This document shows, one piece after another, positions 43,852-55,795 of a stretch of 64,000 nt of DNA. Location: positions 1-64,000 of the forward strand of contig JASCOH010000008.1 of NCBI GenBank assembly GCA_029959295.1, given 5' to 3'. Position 1 is the first letter of the stretch. Every line of letters begins with the position of its first letter. The DNA comes from Flavobacteriaceae bacterium PS02334. GTDB taxonomy: Bacteria > Bacteroidota > Bacteroidia > Flavobacteriales > Flavobacteriaceae. The notes under the pieces are model-generated. The model had not been told where the DNA came from. It saw only the letters and a list, made by a program, of their open reading frames with translations, and ran no database searches. The position numbers and the translations under genes are program-made.

Positions 43852-45102
43852 ATGGAGCAGACAAAAAAATCGACGTTCAAACTGCTTTTCTATTTGAAAA
43901 AGAACGAACTGAAAAAGAACGGTAATGCACCAGTTATGGCACGTATTACCATTGACGGAACGCCTAAAACTTTCGGAACAAAGTTAGAAATAAACCCCAA
44001 TAACTGGGATTTAAAGTACGGAAGAGTTGAGGGCAAGAGTGCCCAGGCATTGAGCATTAATAAAAAACTGGATAACATTCGTGGGCGTATCGACAAGATT
44101 TACGAAGATATGCTGAAGCACGAGGGCTTTGCCACCGCCCAAAAAGTAAAGCTGTCGTTTTTGGGTGTAGGAATAATGGATGATGCAATCCTAAAAGTCT
44201 TTAACGACCAAAATGAGGATTTTAAAAAATTGGTCGAAAAGGAAGAACGCTCACAAAGCACTTACAACAAGTATATCACAGTTTACAATCATCTTACCAC
44301 ATTTATAAAGGAACGCTATCATCGTGATGATATGGCTTTTCGGGAATTGACTTCCGACTTTATCCGTGAGTTTGATTTTTATCTCCGGTACGATTTACAA
44401 TCTACGCATAATACGGTTTGGGTTTATACGATGCCTGTATTAGCCCTTGCAGAACTGGCTATTAAAAAAGGCTTGATACGTGATAATCCTTTTCAGGATT
44501 ACGAAATCAATATGGAAGAAACCGACCGGGGCTATATTCTGAAAGAGGATGTAGAAAAGTTGATGATGTGCATACCATCGCACCCACGTTATGAACTTGT
44601 AAAAGACCTCTTTATTTTCAGTTGCTTTACCGGACTTGCTTACGCTGATATTAAAAAACTGACAAGGAACAATATTCAATCTTTCTTTGACGGTCATCAA
44701 TGGATTATCAGCAGGAGGAAGAAATCGGATATTGCTTCTAATGTTCGCTTATTGGAAATTCCAAAACGTATCATTGAGAAATATCAGGGTACTACAAGGA
44801 ATGAATTTATTTTTCCGGTTCCGACCAACGCAACCTGCAATACGCACGTAGGCAAATTGATTGAGAAAGCTGAAATTATCACAGAACAAAAAGTTACTTT
44901 CCACACAGCAAGGCACACTTTCGGAACTATGTTTTTGACCGAGGGCGTACCCCTTGAAAGCCTTAGCAAAATGATGGGGCATAAAAATATCTCGACCACA
45001 CAGATTTATGCTAAAATCACAAGCCAAAAAATCAGTAAGGATATGGATTTGGTTACGCCAAAATTCAGGGCAATGGAAGAAGCATTTTTGGCGGCGATAT
45101 AA
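43852..45102 (+). CDS. int: Tyrosine recombinase/integrase of a Bacteroidota conjugative element
   Basis: The 416-residue protein has an N-terminal arm-binding domain (about 10-95; LFYLKKNELKKNGNAPVMARITIDG, typical of Bacteroidota transposon integrases). A core-binding SAM-like domain spans about 120-215 and the catalytic domain about 230-400. The latter has Arg in FTGLAYADIKKL as a family variant region, then HTARHTFGT (HxxR), GHKNISTTQIYAKI (His and the Tyr nucleophile). It catalyses integration and excision, consistent with the conjugation genes downstream. It is followed by its own terminator. Confidence 0.95.
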   Translation: MEQTKKSTFKLLFYLKKNELKKNGNAPVMARITIDGTPKTFGTKLEINPNNWDLKYGRVEGKSAQALSINKKLDNIRGRIDKIYEDMLKHEGFATAQKVKLSFLGVGIMDDAILKVFNDQNEDFKKLVEKEERSQSTYNKYITVYNHLTTFIKERYHRDDMAFRELTSDFIREFDFYLRYDLQSTHNTVWVYTMPVLALAELAIKKGLIRDNPFQDYEINMEETDRGYILKEDVEKLMMCIPSHPRYELVKDLFIFSCFTGLAYADIKKLTRNNIQSFFDGHQWIISRRKKSDIASNVRLLEIPKRIIEKYQGTTRNEFIFPVPTNATCNTHVGKLIEKAEIITEQKVTFHTARHTFGTMFLTEGVPLESLSKMMGHKNISTTQIYAKITSQKISKDMDLVTPKFRAMEEAFLAAI

Positions 45103-47063: not shown

Positions 47064-47555
47064 ATGGCTAATTGGTGCAACAATACGGTTGTTTTCGAGG
47101 GAACAAACGAAGCAATCGAACAGATAACACAGCTATTCAAATCTATGGCTGAAAAAGAGCAGAAAGAAGATTGCGGGCAACTGCCCAATTTCGTACAGGA
47201 TACGCACGGAGATTATTTCTTCAGCATCAGCCAAGACAATGAAAGTATGGGCGTGTTCCAGTATGAAACAAAATGGTCGCCTAATACGGAAGTCGTTAAG
47301 CAGATAGCAGAACATTTTAAAGTTGCCTTCACACACGAGTATGAGGAATTGGGATGCTTAGTATTTGGCAAGGCAACATTTGAGAACGGTACACTAACGG
47401 AAACCTGCTTAGATAGTCAGGATTTTGAAAGCTATGAATTAGACGAGGAAACCGACACCTACCATTTTGAGGGTAAGGAGTATGACAGCGAATGGGAAAT
47501 ACTTGAAACTTTGTTAGAACGTAAAATCGAAAATCAGTTAAAAACGATTAACTAA
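47064..47555 (+). CDS. Api92/DUF1281-like protein with ferredoxin-like fold
   Basis: The 163-residue protein begins MANWCNNTVVFEGTNEAIEQI, the typical opening of DUF1281/Api92-like proteins (W-C-x-N, then a beta-alpha-beta unit). It continues with FSISQDNESMGVFQYETKWSP, where the conserved W-x-P-N pattern fits the family. It starts 2 bases after the upstream stop and is likely coupled. The family is found on mobile elements; no function is known. Confidence 0.75.
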   Translation: MANWCNNTVVFEGTNEAIEQITQLFKSMAEKEQKEDCGQLPNFVQDTHGDYFFSISQDNESMGVFQYETKWSPNTEVVKQIAEHFKVAFTHEYEELGCLVFGKATFENGTLTETCLDSQDFESYELDEETDTYHFEGKEYDSEWEILETLLERKIENQLKTIN

Positions 47556-47824: not shown

Positions 47825-47832
47825 TAAATTTG
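47825..47832 (+). promoter_or_regulatory. -7 element of the RES/GIY-YIG/AbiH module
   Basis: TAAATTTG matches TAnnTTTG and lies 30 bases before the ATG at 47863. It shows that the earlier in-frame TTG at 47830 is unlikely to be the start. Confidence 0.55.
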
Positions 47833-47862: not shown

Positions 47863-49014
47863 ATGGGAGGTGTAAAACAGAGGTGGCTTGAATTGGAAAG
47901 TAGAAATTTAAGTAGTATTCCAGATAAAAACATTTGTATCAAGCATTTTGAAGACAAAAGCATTAACCGTTTCATTAAACAAAACTATCAAGATGGCTTT
48001 TGCGATTATTGTGGCAAGGAATTAAAAGTTGTTCCCCTTGAAGATTTAATGGAGTTTATTATGGATGGCATTTCAAACTTCTACGAAGATGCAGCCAATT
48101 TTATGAGTTACAATTCAAGAGAGGGGGGTTATCTTGGAGAAATTTATACTCCTGACGAACTCATTCAAGAACACATCGAATTAATCGCTGAACCGTTTGA
48201 AGTTATAGAAGACATCGTTAACTCAATTGAAGATATTGCTTGGGCTCAACCGGACTTGTATTATGACAACATTAAAGATGATTTAGAATTTCAATGGAAA
48301 TACTTTAAAGATATTATTAAACATAAGTCCCGTTATCTTTTTTCATCCGGGGACAGTGACCAACCTAAAGCTCTATATATATTACAAGAGGTAGGCAAGC
48401 TTATATCGAAATTAAACATAATAAGGGTAGTCCCGGCAGGAACAAAACTTTATCGTTGCAGACAGCACGACTTCAAAACAAATATTACTGAATTTGAGGA
48501 AATTTCTGCTCCGCCTAATAAGAAAGCAATTTATCCGAATAGGTTTAGCCCATCAGGAATATCAATGTTTTATTCTGCTTTTGATATTGATACAGCAATT
48601 TTAGAAACAATAAGCAGGACAGATAAATACAAAAAGTATGTTACGATTGCAGAATTTGAAACATTAGAAAATCAGATTGTTGTTGATTTTAACAGGTTGC
48701 CTAAAATTCCAAGTATTTTCGGAATTAGAGATAAGAAACGATACTACCTTGTCTTATTCCTATACTCATTTGTAAGAGATATAACTCAACAAATTACTAA
48801 GGATGGAAAAGAGCATACCGAATACGTTCCAACGCAAGTTGTGACTGAATTTTTAAGGTATCCATTTAATAAAAATCGAAAGAATAAAATATCGGGAATT
48901 ATTTATCCCTCTTCGCAAAATAAAAATCAGAAATCGGCAGTGTTTTTTTGGGATGACGAATTAAGTAAAGAAAAGGTAAAATTGAATAAATTAGAACGGA
49001 GAAAAATTATTTAA
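47863..49014 (+). CDS. HEPN-associated N-terminal domain / RES-domain protein (putative NAD-degrading toxin)
   Basis: The ATG at 47863 (MGGVKQRWLELESRNL) gives 383 residues. The N-terminal part (about 1-165) resembles the HEPN/RES N-terminal domain: a CxxC pair at Cys47 and Cys50 (FCDYCGKEL), then DGISNFYEDAANFMSY. The RES domain (about 190-365) shows YRCR (Arg198, Arg200), MFYSAFDIDTAILETI (Tyr237, Glu248) and GIIYPSSQNK (the conserved Ser region). RES proteins such as MbcT and ParT consume or modify NAD-linked substrates and act as toxins. No Xre-MbcA type antitoxin lies next to it. Its stop TAA directly abuts the ATG of the next gene. Confidence 0.85.
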   Translation: MGGVKQRWLELESRNLSSIPDKNICIKHFEDKSINRFIKQNYQDGFCDYCGKELKVVPLEDLMEFIMDGISNFYEDAANFMSYNSREGGYLGEIYTPDELIQEHIELIAEPFEVIEDIVNSIEDIAWAQPDLYYDNIKDDLEFQWKYFKDIIKHKSRYLFSSGDSDQPKALYILQEVGKLISKLNIIRVVPAGTKLYRCRQHDFKTNITEFEEISAPPNKKAIYPNRFSPSGISMFYSAFDIDTAILETISRTDKYKKYVTIAEFETLENQIVVDFNRLPKIPSIFGIRDKKRYYLVLFLYSFVRDITQQITKDGKEHTEYVPTQVVTEFLRYPFNKNRKNKISGIIYPSSQNKNQKSAVFFWDDELSKEKVKLNKLERRKII

Positions 49015-49590
49015 ATGAAAATTGACACTAAAGGCATCGTCAAGAAATCTGAAAAATTTGCATTAAATGTAGCTGACCAAATTTCTAAAATTACGGTTCA
49101 ACCATTTTGTGAAATATCTTTTCATTCCTTGCAGTTTAGAGATAAAGCAACACTAAAAAAGCACATAGATAAAATTCCCAAAAGTGATAATCCACTTATC
49201 TATATATTACGAGTTCAGTCCCCAAAAAAGGTAAAAAGATTAATTGAACATTTTGAAAACTATCATTCTGCAAACAAGCTAAAAACAAAGAATAAAGATA
49301 GAGTTAATCTTTCCCGATACAACAAAACTTCATCGGATATATTATACGTTGGAAGTTCAACAACCGATTTCAAGACAAGAATTAAAAACCATCTTGGTAC
49401 AAAGGGAACGAGAGTTTATAGCTTGCATTTATGCAAGTGGGACAATTGTTTGGAATACGATTTGAATATTTTTGCATACGAAGTCATTTCGGAGAGTGAT
49501 GAAACAATTGAGCGTTTCATTGTCGAAATTCTTGAACAGCAATTCTGGGATAAGCTAAGTCCAATATTTGGAAAACGCAGTGGTTTGTAA
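49015..49590 (+). CDS. GIY-YIG-like nuclease protein, coupled to the RES gene
   Basis: The 191-residue protein has a GIY-like strand IYIL (62-65), then an insertion of about 45 residues, then YVGSS (111-115). TDFKTRIKNHLG follows (Arg122, His126), then YSLHLCKW, and a C-terminal block VEILEQQFWDKLSPIFGKRSG with candidate catalytic Glu171/174. This follows the order of GIY-YIG domains, but the first motif is degenerate and the family-typical Asn is replaced near KRSG. An N-terminal 60-residue extension is present. The function could be nuclease, sensor or antitoxin; only the fold is suggested. Translation is coupled to the RES gene with no gap. Confidence 0.7.
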   Translation: MKIDTKGIVKKSEKFALNVADQISKITVQPFCEISFHSLQFRDKATLKKHIDKIPKSDNPLIYILRVQSPKKVKRLIEHFENYHSANKLKTKNKDRVNLSRYNKTSSDILYVGSSTTDFKTRIKNHLGTKGTRVYSLHLCKWDNCLEYDLNIFAYEVISESDETIERFIVEILEQQFWDKLSPIFGKRSGL

Positions 49591-49621
49591 GCCCATAAGA
49601 ATAAATTTAAACAACTGAATT

Positions 49622-50602
49622 ATGAAAACATTATACATTATTGGTAATGGATTTGACATCCATCATAAATTAGACACGAGATATCAAAGTTTTGCAAACT
49701 ACTTGGCTGAAAATAACAGCGAGGTTTACGACCTTTTATTAAATTATTATGGACTTCCCGATATTACAAATCCCGAATTGACGGATGAAGAATATGCTTT
49801 ATGGTCAAGATTTGAGCAAGCGTTAGCCGACTTGGATTACCTAACGGTATTGGATGATAATTCTGACCTAATAGCCCGACCTGGTGCTGAAGATTTTCGA
49901 GATAGGGATTGGCATAGTTATCAAGTTGAAATGGAACTAATCATTAAAGATTTAACCACTACCCTAATTAGCGACTTTAATAGTTTTATCCTTGAAGTCG
50001 AATACGAAAATATTCCCGATGATATGCTAATTGAATTGGAAGACGATAGCCATTTTTTAAATTTCAATTATACTGAAACACTACAGAAAGGCTACGGTAT
50101 TCCCGAAGAAAGAATAACCTATATTCATAACAGAGCAGATACAGACAATTGTACTCTTATTTTAGGCCACGGAACTGACCCAGCAAATTTTGAGGAGAAA
50201 GAAGAAGAACCGCCACAAAGTTTAAGCGAAGAAGAATTATACGAATGGCGAGAACAAAAGGCTGATGAATATGACTATTCTTATGAAAGTGCCAAGCAAG
50301 AAATATTATCTTATTATACAAAGGCATTTAAAAATACAACTTCAATTATAGAAAACAATATTGATTTTTTTTCAAATCTTACTGAAGTTGAAAAAGTTAT
50401 CGTCTTGGGACATTCTATTTCAGAGGTAGATTTAAAATATTTTGAAGTATTAAAAGCCAAACTAAATGAAAATGTAATTTGGAATGTTTCATATTACAGT
50501 GAACTTGAAAAGCAAGCACACAAAGAAACTTTGTTGCAACTTGGAGTAAATGACACTAATATTATTCAAATAAAAATTGCTGATTTAAAAAGGCAACCTT
50601 AG
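49622..50602 (+). CDS. abiH: AbiH family abortive-infection protein
   Basis: The 326-residue protein begins MKTLYIIGNGFDIHHKLDTRY, the diagnostic GNGFD-x-x-H block of AbiH (Pfam AbiH, a Rossmann/SIR2-like fold). Later blocks are FLNFNYTETLQKGYGIPEERITYIHN, LILGHGTDP and VIVLGHSISEVDLKYFEVL, which form the nucleotide-pocket-like end. In Lactococcus AbiH blocks phage growth by abortive infection; the exact mechanism is unclear. It is 31 bases after the GIY-YIG gene in the same direction and ends overlapping the convergent receiver-protein gene by 4 bases. Confidence 0.92.
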   Translation: MKTLYIIGNGFDIHHKLDTRYQSFANYLAENNSEVYDLLLNYYGLPDITNPELTDEEYALWSRFEQALADLDYLTVLDDNSDLIARPGAEDFRDRDWHSYQVEMELIIKDLTTTLISDFNSFILEVEYENIPDDMLIELEDDSHFLNFNYTETLQKGYGIPEERITYIHNRADTDNCTLILGHGTDPANFEEKEEEPPQSLSEEELYEWREQKADEYDYSYESAKQEILSYYTKAFKNTTSIIENNIDFFSNLTEVEKVIVLGHSISEVDLKYFEVLKAKLNENVIWNVSYYSELEKQAHKETLLQLGVNDTNIIQIKIADLKRQP

Positions 50603-51048
50603 TTATTGCTGAAATATTCTTTAGTAATTTCCGCTACTCCCATACTAAAATATCTTCCGCCATTAATAACAACTTCAATAGCTTTTTTAAAATCGTCCGC
50701 ATCGCTACCAACGAGCAAGTAGCCTACAAAGCCAATTCTCAAAAGAGATTTTACGGCTTTTTCGGTATCAATATCACTATGGGCAATAAGTTTTATTATC
50801 GGGTATTGTATCCTCAATTCTTGAAGCCGTACCAATATATTCTTATCATAAAAATCGAGGTCAATAATACATACCTTAGGAAGCGATTTTAAAGCGGATA
50901 ATTGAGATACTCCGTCTTCAATGTTTTCCGAATGGAAGAGTATAGCAGTTCCTAAAGCAACGAGGTCGTTGCAAGTCATATCCACAATCGGGTTTTTATC
51001 GTTGATAAATGCAATGCTGATTTCCTTTGAGGTGTTTGAAGTTTCCAT
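50599..51048 (-). CDS. Stand-alone response-regulator receiver protein of the conjugative element
   Basis: The ATG at 51048 (METSNTSKEISIAFINDKNPIV) gives 149 residues. It is a CheY-like receiver domain with the phosphoacceptor Asp in VCIIDLDFYDKN, a Ser in IKLIAHSD and the GYLLVGSDADDFKKAIEVVINGGRYF ending seen in NarL/LuxR receivers. The usual C-terminal helix-turn-helix is missing. Similar single-domain regulators occur in Bacteroidota elements next to small HTH genes. It may regulate transfer or excision, which is inference. Confidence 0.8.
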   Translation of the reverse strand: METSNTSKEISIAFINDKNPIVDMTCNDLVALGTAILFHSENIEDGVSQLSALKSLPKVCIIDLDFYDKNILVRLQELRIQYPIIKLIAHSDIDTEKAVKSLLRIGFVGYLLVGSDADDFKKAIEVVINGGRYFSMGVAEITKEYFSNN

Positions 51049-51322
51049 ACTACCAGTTTTTAATGTTAGTGGTAGTTCTGCACAAAAAAAGAAGCGCAGG
51101 CAACTACACTTACCGCACATTGAGGCACTGGTATGCCCGACAACGAATAAGCGAGCGCCCACGCCTTTTGACGTGAGCGTTCTTACTTATCTGTCCCGTT
51201 GTCTAAAAATTACCAGTTTTCAATGTGGGACTTAAAGCAAAAACACTTTAAGTATTTTCTATATTTTCTAACGCAAAGATACTAAACTCATTCCTATATG
51301 AAAGTATATAGGGAGAAAAAGG
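51049..51322. promoter_or_regulatory. Regulatory region between the receiver gene and the HTH genes
   Basis: The repeat TACCAGTTTT-n-AATGT occurs at 51051-51066 and 51211-51226, exactly 160 bases apart in the same orientation. On the - strand TATCTTTG (plus 51274-51281) matches TAnnTTTG. An inverted repeat CCTATAT / ATATAGG with a 6-base loop lies at 51293-51312. The region probably holds the promoter of the receiver gene and possible operators. No gene is seen. Confidence 0.45.
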
Positions 51323-52493: not shown

Positions 52494-52943
52494 TTAATCA
52501 CTACTATTAAACTGAAAGCTCAACTGCTTTTCATTCCCGAAGCTGTCCGAAATCCAAACATCAAAAGATTGCGATACGGCAGAAGTTGATGTATAATACA
52601 GCCTGAATTGCTCCGTTGGTAATTGGTACAGGTCATTGGGCTGATAAGGCGGTTCATTGTAATACTGCAAAGTACCTTGCCCATCAAACTGGAAATAGCG
52701 GAGGAAATACTGCGTGTTACTATAATTCTCGGTACGCTGTATGGTAATGCGTATTTCTACGGTCTGCCCGTTGGCAACGTCTTTAGGCACTGGCATCACA
52801 TTGACCTCGAAAGGAAAATCGTTCTGTATTTCGAGTTCATCATCTTTGCTGCAAGATACCAACGTAACCGAAGCTGTGAGGATTGTCAGGAATACATATA
52901 GTGGCAGTAATCCCATTCTGAATTTATTAAATATTGCTGTCAT
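52494..52943 (-). CDS. traQ: Conjugative transposon protein TraQ (DUF3872)
   Basis: The 149-residue protein has a lipoprotein-like signal (LLPLYVFLTILTASVTLVSC, Cys as likely acylation site), then a beta-sandwich domain matching DUF3872: FPFEVNVMPVPKDVANGQTVEIRITIQRT, YFLRYFQFDGQGTL, SFDVWISDSFGNEKQLSFQF. TraQ belongs to the CTnDOT tra set. It follows traO by 12 bases. In CTnDOT the gene traP lies between them, but there is no room for it here. Confidence 0.9.
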   Translation of the reverse strand: MTAIFNKFRMGLLPLYVFLTILTASVTLVSCSKDDELEIQNDFPFEVNVMPVPKDVANGQTVEIRITIQRTENYSNTQYFLRYFQFDGQGTLQYYNEPPYQPNDLYQLPTEQFRLYYTSTSAVSQSFDVWISDSFGNEKQLSFQFNSSD

Positions 52944-52955
52944 CGTTTTTACGTT

Positions 52956-53516
52956 TTAAAAGTTAAACCTTAATCCCAAACCTGCCGACGGACGGAACTG
53001 TTCCAAGTCCGTACCCCACAAGACCTTTGTACGCCCTTGCAGGACGAGTACAAAACGGTCGGACAGGTACGTTTCAAAAGTGAGGCGACCACCTGCACCG
53101 TAAATGAAATTATCCTCGCTTAGTATCTTCGCTCCGTCGTACAACATTGCATCGCCCCGGTTGATGGTTTCGTAACCGACCACACCTGTTATCCCAAAAT
53201 TCAGCGTGAAATTTTTTCGGGCATCGCCCAACAAAAAGAAGCTGTAACCGCCCTCTGCGGAATAAGTTTCCTGCGGGATGCGGAGGTCTTTGTAGTCGTG
53301 GTACTGGTGCGTGTATTCCAACGCCCAAAGCTGATAATTGCCATTTTTACCGTTTACGGTCATTGCTGCACTGATGTAATAATCTTTACCAATTTTATCA
53401 TCGGATAATACACCCGCACTTATTTCCAGTCCTCTCTGTTTTGGCAGCATTCTTTGTGCCTGTGCAGCCGTAATGCCTATCAGGACAAGCATCACGGTAT
53501 AGATATACTTTTTCAT
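52956..53516 (-). CDS. traO: Conjugal transfer protein TraO
   Basis: The 186-residue outer-membrane-barrel-like protein has a signal peptide (MKKYIYTVMLVLIGITAAQAQ). Repeated amphipathic strands follow (QLWALEYTHQYHDY, FFLLGDARKNFTLNFGITGVVGYE, RLTFETYLSDRFVLVLQGRTKVLWG), and it ends ...GLGLRFNF, a typical outer-membrane C-terminal strand. TraO is part of the MPF-B type IV secretion system. It lies between traN and traQ. Confidence 0.93.
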   Translation of the reverse strand: MKKYIYTVMLVLIGITAAQAQRMLPKQRGLEISAGVLSDDKIGKDYYISAAMTVNGKNGNYQLWALEYTHQYHDYKDLRIPQETYSAEGGYSFFLLGDARKNFTLNFGITGVVGYETINRGDAMLYDGAKILSEDNFIYGAGGRLTFETYLSDRFVLVLQGRTKVLWGTDLEQFRPSAGLGLRFNF

Positions 53517-53536
53517 ATTATTGCTTTAAAAGGTTA

Positions 53537-54430
53537 CTAAAATTTCAGGTGCATATCGTTAATCAAACGGGCTTTGATTAAATCGGAATTTTCCACCTGA
53601 AGCGTCTGGTGTCTGCCGCCGTTTTTCTCGAAAATCTCAATCAGCAGTACCTTATCATCGGCAATGGTAAACTGGTCTAAAAGGAACACATTTTGTTCGG
53701 TTGATTTTCCGGCGATGCCGTCCAATGGTTTGTAGGTACGCAACGGCTTTAGCGGTCTTTCCTGTACTACAGTGCGTTTGGCTACTTTCTTATCTACTAC
53801 TTTGAAATTGATAAAATCAATTTGGAAAGGCACATTGGTACTGTTTCTCAATTCCGTATGGAAATAGTATTTACCGTTGTGGATGTAAATCCCTTTCAGG
53901 ATAAATTGAATACCGAAACTCTTAGCCCCGATATGCTTTACAATACGCTTATCTTTCTTATAAATGGTTTCCAATAGCAACCCTGCCAATGAGGGCGAAT
54001 TATTACCCAATTCCTCAAAAAGCACATCGTTACCATTGGTTCTGTCCACTGCCTTTTGCATTGTGAGCAGGTCATAGTTCATTGCTTCCGGGTAAGAACT
54101 GTAATACACGTTAAAGCTGTAAAAACGCCCGTCATTGGTAATCACAGAAAAATTGGTTTCCGGTTCAAAATCCCTTACTGATGCTTTTACACGTAATACA
54201 TTTTCAGCATCTTCCGCTTTTCCTGCAATCAGGTATTCGCTGCCCAAGTCCACGTAACGAATAGCGGTCGGGAAAATCAGGTGCGAAGTTTTATCGTAGG
54301 TAACTTCCATACGATACGGTTCTATCTTTCCCAGGGCAAGAGGTGTCTTGATGCTGTCCTGTGCATAAGATGTTACGGCAAAGCCGAGTATCAGGGCAAT
54401 AGCCCAAAAGGTTTTTAAATGATTTTTCAT
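53537..54430 (-). CDS. traN: Conjugative transposon protein TraN (DUF4138)
   Basis: The 297-residue protein has a signal peptide (FWAIALILGFAVTSYAQ). The DUF4138 domain shows SHLIFPTAIRYVDLGSEYLIAGKAEDAENVLRVKA, FSVITNDGRFYSFNVYYSSYP and IYIHNGKYYFHTELRNSTNVPFQIDFINFKV. TraN is a VirB9-like outer-membrane core component of the conjugation channel. It follows traM by 24 bases in the tra operon. Confidence 0.93.
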   Translation of the reverse strand: MKNHLKTFWAIALILGFAVTSYAQDSIKTPLALGKIEPYRMEVTYDKTSHLIFPTAIRYVDLGSEYLIAGKAEDAENVLRVKASVRDFEPETNFSVITNDGRFYSFNVYYSSYPEAMNYDLLTMQKAVDRTNGNDVLFEELGNNSPSLAGLLLETIYKKDKRIVKHIGAKSFGIQFILKGIYIHNGKYYFHTELRNSTNVPFQIDFINFKVVDKKVAKRTVVQERPLKPLRTYKPLDGIAGKSTEQNVFLLDQFTIADDKVLLIEIFEKNGGRHQTLQVENSDLIKARLINDMHLKF

Positions 54431-54454
54431 TGTTCTATTTATTTGAGTTCAACA

Positions 54455-55795
54455 TTATTTTTTAGATACCAAAAAGACCTGATGCCCCGCTTTCAGAGTA
54501 ACCTTTGGCGTTCTTACCTTTTTGGCGAAATAGCCCGAAATTCCCTGTACCACGCCACGGCTTAAATCAGCAGCAACCTGTTGTCCGGCATTTTGCGTGA
54601 GCATTACACTGGTTCCACCTGTCTGGCTCATATTGCCCGCCATTTCGGTAAGGGCGTTCATTTCGGGAGAATACGGAACGTACAAGCCTTGCTGTCCGTC
54701 CAAATCATAAATGGTAATATCCACCGGAATGATGTTGCCCTCTAATTCTATCGAGGTAACTTTCAGTTGCAGCCTGCCATTTTGAAACTTCGCATTAGCC
54801 GTTACAATAGTTCCTTTCGGGATGGTACGTTGTGGCGTTTGAGCAGCTTCCAACAGTCGCAGCCTTACACCCATTTCCCCAACTACCGTTTGTGCTTCGT
54901 GTACACAGGCTTTAATACTATTTTTAGGCTGTGTTACCTGTTCAGTAGCACCTGCGGTATAAAAGCCACGGTTTTTAGTTTGGCTCCAATCGGCGGCAAA
55001 GGCACTGTCTGACGGTTCACGGTACAAAGCTGATACGGTATTTTTTCTTGTTGGCGTAAACGATACAAAGTATTCTTTTTGGTTAGCACCCACAGTTCCC
55101 GAATTTGCACCGTTAGCCGTTGCAGCATTTCCGCCATTGTCATTTTGCGGAAGATATTTTGCTGCCATTTCGTAGGATTTCTCCATTAGCTTCAGTTGGT
55201 CGTCAACGGTGGCCACAGGTGGCACGTCTTTTTCCGCCAACTTCGCTTTCATTTCGTCCACCTGCCTGCGGAGTTCCATTGTTTCCGCATTTTCATTGCT
55301 ATAAAATGAACCTAATGTGCTTTGTGCATTTCGGTAACTACTCAATGCAGAGTTGCCGTTTCTTCGGGAACCTCTGCTACCACCGCCATAGCCGGTGCTT
55401 TCATCTTCTTCAGGAAGCTGCTTATCTGTCGGCTCTTCCTTGTCTTCTGCATTCCAATAATCAGAAAGCGTTGTCAGGGCATTGCGTTTTTCCTGCTCTT
55501 TGCGTTCGAGCATTTCCTGTTCATACGCCTTGCCTTTATCGGCAGGCATTCCTGCTCCGGTAGCCTGTGGTACGGCATCGTTCAGCCCGACGTTTTCGAT
55601 TGCCTTTTTATCTTCGGACGGTTTAAATATGAGGTACATACAACCCACGAACACAATCGCCATTAAGCCAAAGATTAAAGGCTTTTTGAGCTTTTCCTTG
55701 TTAGTCTGCGTGCCGTTTTGTAGCACATCAGCGGTTTCTTTCGGGCTTCCCTCGGTTACCCGAACAACCGATTTTTTGTTCTCATTTTCTTTCAT
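54455..55795 (-). CDS. traM: Conjugative transposon protein TraM (VirB10-like)
   Basis: The 446-residue protein has a cytoplasmic N terminus, one TM segment (KPLIFGLMAIVFVGCMYLIF, about 40-58), a long low-complexity, charged linker (about 60-230) and a VirB10-like C-terminal domain (about 285-446). That domain has VGEMGVRLRLLEAAQTPQRTIPKGTIVTANAKFQNGRLQLKVTSIELEGNIIPVDITIYDLDGQQGLYVP. It would span the periplasm and link inner and outer membrane parts of the type IV secretion apparatus. It sits between traL and traN. Confidence 0.95.
   Translation of the reverse strand: MKENENKKSVVRVTEGSPKETADVLQNGTQTNKEKLKKPLIFGLMAIVFVGCMYLIFKPSEDKKAIENVGLNDAVPQATGAGMPADKGKAYEQEMLERKEQEKRNALTTLSDYWNAEDKEEPTDKQLPEEDESTGYGGGSRGSRRNGNSALSSYRNAQSTLGSFYSNENAETMELRRQVDEMKAKLAEKDVPPVATVDDQLKLMEKSYEMAAKYLPQNDNGGNAATANGANSGTVGANQKEYFVSFTPTRKNTVSALYREPSDSAFAADWSQTKNRGFYTAGATEQVTQPKNSIKACVHEAQTVVGEMGVRLRLLEAAQTPQRTIPKGTIVTANAKFQNGRLQLKVTSIELEGNIIPVDITIYDLDGQQGLYVPYSPEMNALTEMAGNMSQTGGTSVMLTQNAGQQVAADLSRGVVQGISGYFAKKVRTPKVTLKAGHQVFLVSKK

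Follow-up and report, generated by a model that had tools for sequence, protein, structure and literature searches.

The RES-Xre systems MbcT-MbcA, ParT-ParS and NatT-NatR have a common RES/ART catalytic fold with invariant Arg, Glu and Ser residues, and a second described group joins the RES domain to PF18870 (HEPN/RES-NTD1, here NTD1), a domain placed in front of HEPN or RES domains (PMC3710099). Nucleases of the GIY-YIG type can protect against phage, as reported for CMoRE (PD-T4-3, a type IV restriction enzyme; PMC12923530) and SNIPE (PD-lambda-1; PMC13190303). AbiH, listed as a stand-alone system in PMC12322248, is described there as blocking a phage genus in Streptococcus thermophilus, with narrow activity and an unknown mode of action. 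We analysed a window of 64,000 nucleotides (positions 1 to 64,000 of contig JASCOH010000008.1, Flavobacteriaceae bacterium PS02334) in which genes for an NTD1-RES protein, a GIY-YIG protein (here GIY) and an AbiH protein follow one another on a conjugative element, and which an initial annotation had read as carrying a candidate undescribed anti-phage module of RES, GIY and AbiH. The trio is probably anti-viral cargo and not one fixed new machine, and we lean towards a composite of two widely recombined parts, RES and GIY, with a separately exchanged AbiH. Both RES and GIY turn up time and again next to many other defence systems, as exchangeable partners, and what is new here is an unnamed GIY-YIG family that recurs as the second gene in defence operons.

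In the RES protein, NTD1 (Pfam HEPN_RES_NTD1, E = 3.6e-40) precedes the RES domain (PF08808, E = 5e-14), which is the HEPN/RES-NTD1 architecture. The initial annotation had noted a HEPN/RES-associated N-terminal domain; the association stands, but the domain is not itself a HEPN RNase (PMC3710099). Residues C25, C47 and C50 of the N-terminus are invariant, and this cysteine-bearing region fits the Zn ribbon of the HEPN/RES-NTD1 proteins in PMC3710099, with which the window protein shares the NTD1-RES join. R198 and E248, singled out beforehand as RES residues, proved invariant in an alignment of 11 RES proteins; together with Pfam and structural models they support a predicted RES toxin fold of the MbcT/ParT/NatT type, with conserved Arg, Glu and Ser. 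In contrast to the RES-Xre systems, the window protein has a long N-terminal zinc/NTD1 part and is followed by a nuclease-fold gene rather than by Xre or MbcA. No Xre, MbcA or ParS antitoxin gene was recognised next to RES, where a DUF1281_C reading frame (47064-47555) lies upstream and GIY downstream; three small open reading frames of 60-73 residues between the DUF1281_C frame and GIY gave no antitoxin match. A RES gene without an Xre partner is not new: a table published in 2013 already lists (Zn ribbon)-NTD1-RES (PMC3710099). GIY-YIG is absent from the main text of that paper, so the RES-GIY pairing is not described there.

The GIY protein matches GIY-YIG (PF01541) barely above the Pfam threshold (E = 1.2e-4; 22.7 bits against a cut-off of 22.6). 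Residues Y63, Y111, G113, R122, H126 and E174 are invariant among 30 aligned GIY proteins; they include the GIY-YIG active-site set of two Tyr, Arg and Glu (Y63, Y111, R122, E174), of which R122 and E174 had been named in the initial annotation. The top seven rows of a structural comparison were all GIY-YIG nucleases. These lines of evidence support a GIY-YIG nuclease fold with its active site, as first proposed, and nuclease activity is predicted. CMoRE is a single gene with an N-terminal nuclease and a C-terminal modification sensor (PMC12923530), whereas the catalytic domain of GIY forms the C-terminal two thirds of a 191-residue protein: GIY-YIG matches cover residues 58-189, which leaves no room for a C-terminal domain, and no sensor domain was recognised. 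SNIPE has a transmembrane part and DUF4041 (PMC13190303); unlike SNIPE, GIY gave no DUF4041 match in Pfam at E up to 1. A literature search for AbiH with GIY-YIG and abortive infection, covering neither preprints nor most subscription papers, returned no match, and one for RES together with GIY-YIG in defence returned a single paper. Phage T4 endonuclease II, which we take to be a phage enzyme and no host defence gene, is 14% identical to GIY.

Seen from RES, the pairing is one of several. PF18870 was found in 12 of 299 same-genus genomes, with one locus in each, and GIY lies behind RES in five of them. Four of the five (G000, which is the window's own genome, G411, G619 and G558) belong to one element lineage; in the fifth (G502, locus L121) a single interruption near residue 270 splits the RES frame, and 41 bp separate the end of the second piece from the GIY start. 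No GIY was found in the stretch taken around the other seven (L150-L156; profile, E 1e-3), where RES follows GajA-GajB (L152), SIR2-HerA (L151), SIR2 (L154), an OLD-type ATPase (L155), a 303-residue gene without a Pfam match (L150) or two genes without Pfam matches (L156; presumably sce7726 and sce7725), or stands alone (L153). Relatives of the window RES were present in 20 of the 395 genomes of a phylum sample; the window and 13 further loci (L045-L057) were inspected and six left out, and no GIY was found in the stretches taken around the 13, some of which end near the RES gene. The RES tree, in which L121 is represented by its first RES piece alone, places the window as sister to L150, which has another partner, with full support, and L121 outside that group.

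The GIY family itself occurs in 38 of 299 genus genomes (profile A1), one of them a chance match (L127), and in 8 of 395 phylum genomes (profile A2). We examined 35 loci (L041-L044 and L096-L126; the GIY frame is interrupted in L107, L122 and L123), leaving out L127 and the elements L091-L095, which carry AbiH and mostly RES. The nearest upstream gene of at least 80 residues has the orientation of GIY in 30 of the 35, and Pfam scans of all 30 assigned 11 to defence families (HsdR 3, HsdS 2, GmrSD 2, putative AbiC 2, NTD1-RES 1, PDDEXK_4 1) and none of the remaining 19 to such a family. Thirteen of the 30 downstream same-strand genes, picked as informative-looking, were also scanned and gave GmrSD in three cases, Shedu and PDDEXK_4 in one each, and other families or none in eight; nine selected second neighbours included HsdR (L112, L119, L120), a type I-like methylase (L101, L120, L125) and GmrSD (L104). 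On these partial scans, a restriction, GmrSD, Shedu, putative AbiC, RES or PD-(D/E)XK gene lies at most two genes away in 18 of the 35 loci and is lacking in 17. The gap between GIY and the gene upstream is as small as 0-2 bp behind HsdS (L101, L125), HsdR (L109, L110, L117), GmrSD (L123) and putative AbiC (L044).

To set these neighbours against background, 20 stretches of 7 kb, containing 122 genes, were drawn at random from GIY-bearing genomes and compared by phmmer with 22 defence neighbours. None of the 122 genes matched the set, against seven of the 30 upstream neighbours when each gene's own locus was excluded (Fisher p = 6e-6), the seven not being fully independent because L109, L110 and L117 are related. 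GmrSD, with 88 genes in 101 genus genomes, stands directly beside GIY in at least five loci (L101, L107, L115, L123, L126), compared with about 0.02 of 35 by chance, a rate that ignores the clustering of defence genes in islands. In a GIY tree of 30 rows the RES-paired members fall into two separate supported clades and those paired with putative AbiC into two, with deep placements unsure because three rows have long branches. As a tentative generalisation, for which we would claim less than for the composite cargo, GIY may be a shared, exchangeable nuclease subunit that unrelated defence systems (type I restriction, GmrSD, putative AbiC, Shedu, RES) have repeatedly taken up as their coupled second gene; a single small enzyme would then strengthen many different sensors or effectors. 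It seems very improbable that GIY is a homing-type endonuclease, free-standing and spreading together with the adjoining defence genes. I-TevI is among the closest folds to GIY, solo copies occupy varied places, and there is a weak match (E = 0.049) to a PHROG of GIY-YIG homing endonucleases; yet Pfam reveals no extra DNA-binding module, GIY often starts 0-2 bp behind the preceding gene and is under purifying selection, and matches in viral collections are few (one phage-labelled record; 0 and 1 viral contigs).

The coordinates of the three genes and of their surroundings are collected in Table 1. The genes lie in one direction behind one visible candidate -7 box, as the initial annotation had described; the consensus TAnnTTTG, which we assume to be that of Bacteroidota -7 boxes, has 25 matches on the + strand across the window. 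The RES stop codon TAA directly precedes the GIY ATG with 0 bp in between, and AbiH begins 31 bp after the GIY stop, spacings that also agree with what had been noted. The greater AT-richness of the trio was likewise seen, with G+C fractions of 0.325, 0.321 and 0.324 for RES, GIY and AbiH against 0.41-0.47 in the adjoining tra genes. All three are under purifying selection (NG86 dN/dS 0.06-0.11; 17 comparisons, 6 related loci). AbiH is the sole PADLOC match of the trio; RES and GIY gave none at E up to 1, the presence of a PD-T4-3 model in PADLOC being unverified.

Table 1. Coordinates of the trio, its candidate promoter box and flanking genes in the 64,000-nucleotide window
Feature	Position	Strand	Details
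Tyrosine recombinase (integrase)	43852..45102	+	Phage_integrase PF00589 E 1.7e-17; Arm-DNA-bind_5 E 5e-20
Candidate Bacteroidota -7 box TAAATTTG	47825..47832	+	sole TAnnTTTG match between 47556 and 47870
NTD1-RES protein, 383 aa	47863..49014	+	ATG 47863; cysteine-bearing N-terminus, NTD1 41-165, RES domain 195-366
GIY-YIG protein, 191 aa	49015..49590	+	ATG 49015; start abuts RES stop
AbiH family protein, 326 aa	49622..50602	+	ATG 49622; PF14253 E 2.3e-67; PADLOC AbiH E 3.6e-21
Element gene, 187 aa, right boundary of cargo slot	50599..51162	-	without a Pfam family (E up to 0.1)
Conjugation (tra) genes	52494..55795	-	open reading frames; same-order homologues in related loci; gene names presumed

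When genome contigs were scanned with the GIY protein, 13 related loci emerged, all with Bacteroidota titles. All 13 have the DUF932 element gene upstream, and 11 have tra genes within the stretch, which bears out the placing of these defence-like genes on a conjugative element. RES-GIY-AbiH is present in 11 of the 13, counting L014 and also L002, where the contig ends within AbiH; the other two, L006 and L007, lack RES and have GIY-AbiH. The same-genus search added L091, another element with all three genes, and its matches L092-L095 were taken as L005, L004, L006 and L007 again and counted once. With the window included, 13 of 15 related elements carry RES-GIY-AbiH and two GIY-AbiH without RES. 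L096 and L097, in which GIY (61-63% identity) stands beside a traN only 50% alike and no RES, AbiH or other element gene of the query set was found, represent a more distant element. Where the RES frame is intact, the distance from RES stop to GIY start is constant: 0 or -1 bp in all ten such scan loci and 0 bp in L091. In this cargo RES and GIY come together and have stayed tightly coupled, with AbiH behind them. As a separate observation, all three genes of L014 are in pieces with interrupted frames, and its AbiH pieces lie about 1.3 kb apart.

The constant junction, and a pairing that arose at least twice (in the element lineage and in L121), could mean that RES has in GIY its specific regulator, sensor or antitoxin, the coupled genes acting as one unit. 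We consider this rather unlikely: GIY persists without RES on two of the 15 related elements and on the two more distant ones, seven of the 12 genus RES loci are without GIY, and the catalytic residues are invariant in solo GIY copies too. Moreover, GIY follows HsdR, HsdS, GmrSD or putative AbiC at 0-33 bp in L044, L101, L109, L110, L116, L117, L123 and L125, where an antitoxin to RES would make no sense. The initial annotation had proposed a search for adjacent RES-GIY pairs in other genomes; the pairing turned out not to be exclusive, GIY being found without RES on L006, L007, L096 and L097 and beside HsdR, HsdS, GmrSD, putative AbiC and Shedu, and four of the five genus pairs are of one lineage. 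From the initial annotation we retain the defence-like cargo, its base use, the coupling and the RES and GIY-YIG folds, but not the dedicated conserved RES-GIY system.

The slot that the trio occupies as cargo of this Bacteroidota conjugative element is variable. Relatives of traO were found at 26 places in 15 of 111 genus genomes; 20 places were taken, the six left out including the window and the L005 element, and none of these 20 other element copies holds RES, GIY or AbiH (tblastn, 1e-5). The gene that bounds the slot on the right has a relative in 11 of the 20, which in one case is only 35% identical. Its neighbours are an OLD-like and UvrD pair (L186), a PIN_12 gene (L187) or other cargo, whereas L180 has less than 300 bp there. 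L154 has a SIR2 gene and then another RES gene next to the upstream genes of the element. Five traO-type matches in the window's own genome (G000, contigs C11, C33, C68 and C69) indicate several related conjugative elements in one assembly.

AbiH belongs to its family by both Pfam and PADLOC, with PF14253 spanning residues 4-291 and the whole profile (1-260 of 260), and differs from the stand-alone AbiH of PMC12322248 in coming after RES-GIY. Between L003 and the window, dS reaches 0.51 for AbiH, compared with 0.23 for RES and 0.20 for GIY; AbiH therefore has its own history there and looks like a separate passenger, separately exchanged. This history unlike that of RES-GIY, together with the changing content of the slot (OLD-like and UvrD, PIN_12, SIR2 and RES, or nothing), would also suit three unrelated passengers gathered in a cargo hot spot with no functional link. 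To such a gathering we assign a low probability, as low as to the specific regulator, for it runs against the unvarying junction of RES and GIY and against their having become adjacent a second, independent time, when about 0.001 RES-GIY adjacencies would be expected by chance among 35 loci.

For the composite cargo that we favour, phage defence and NAD depletion by the trio are what we infer. Until infection, the N-terminal zinc/NTD1 part of the RES protein would keep its RES domain inactive; the domain would then destroy NAD, so that growth stops, as its fold and invariant residues suggest. The coupled GIY-YIG protein, judged by the same kinds of evidence, would cut nucleic acid, probably the invading DNA, as an extra blow independent of RES, and AbiH may contribute an independent abortive-infection effect, as expected from its family. 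Should the GIY family prove to be a common add-on nuclease, restriction and abortive-infection operons of Flavobacterium-type bacteria would contain a component that has been overlooked, unrecognised by PADLOC and at threshold in Pfam, and tests of those systems without GIY may understate their strength.

RES genes show further recurring neighbourhoods. A 303-residue gene and a gene of 152-161 residues precede RES in L049 and L150, from two distant clades, forming another recurring RES partner, and a three-gene order of two genes (which we again take to be sce7726 and sce7725) followed by NTD1-RES recurs in five loci (L050, L052, L053, L055, L156). Directly behind GajA-GajB (L152), SIR2-HerA (L151) and an OLD-type gene (L155), NTD1-RES is a possible NAD-depleting tail gene and could add a second arm of this kind to DNA-targeting or sensing systems such as Gabija. 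Distant relatives of the window RES also occur in 171 plasmid records, 135 of them predicted to be conjugative, with 57 from Escherichia and 29 from Shigella.

Among the GIY loci, the window's own genome holds a second, frame-interrupted GIY (G000:C1:92334-92872, L107), flanked by a GmrSD gene on one side and by a Septu-like pair (PADLOC PDC-M62A/B) on the other. Near a type I restriction subunit in L119, GIY is directly followed by a gene (L119:6463-7320) for a second protein unlike it, which has DUF4357 and matches GIY-YIG below threshold. Finally, a record labelled bacteriophage (L060, MT835507.1) has apparent bacterial island genes around a distant GIY relative, which from reading the sequence we presume to be ATPases, a WYL-like regulator and a SIR2-like gene.
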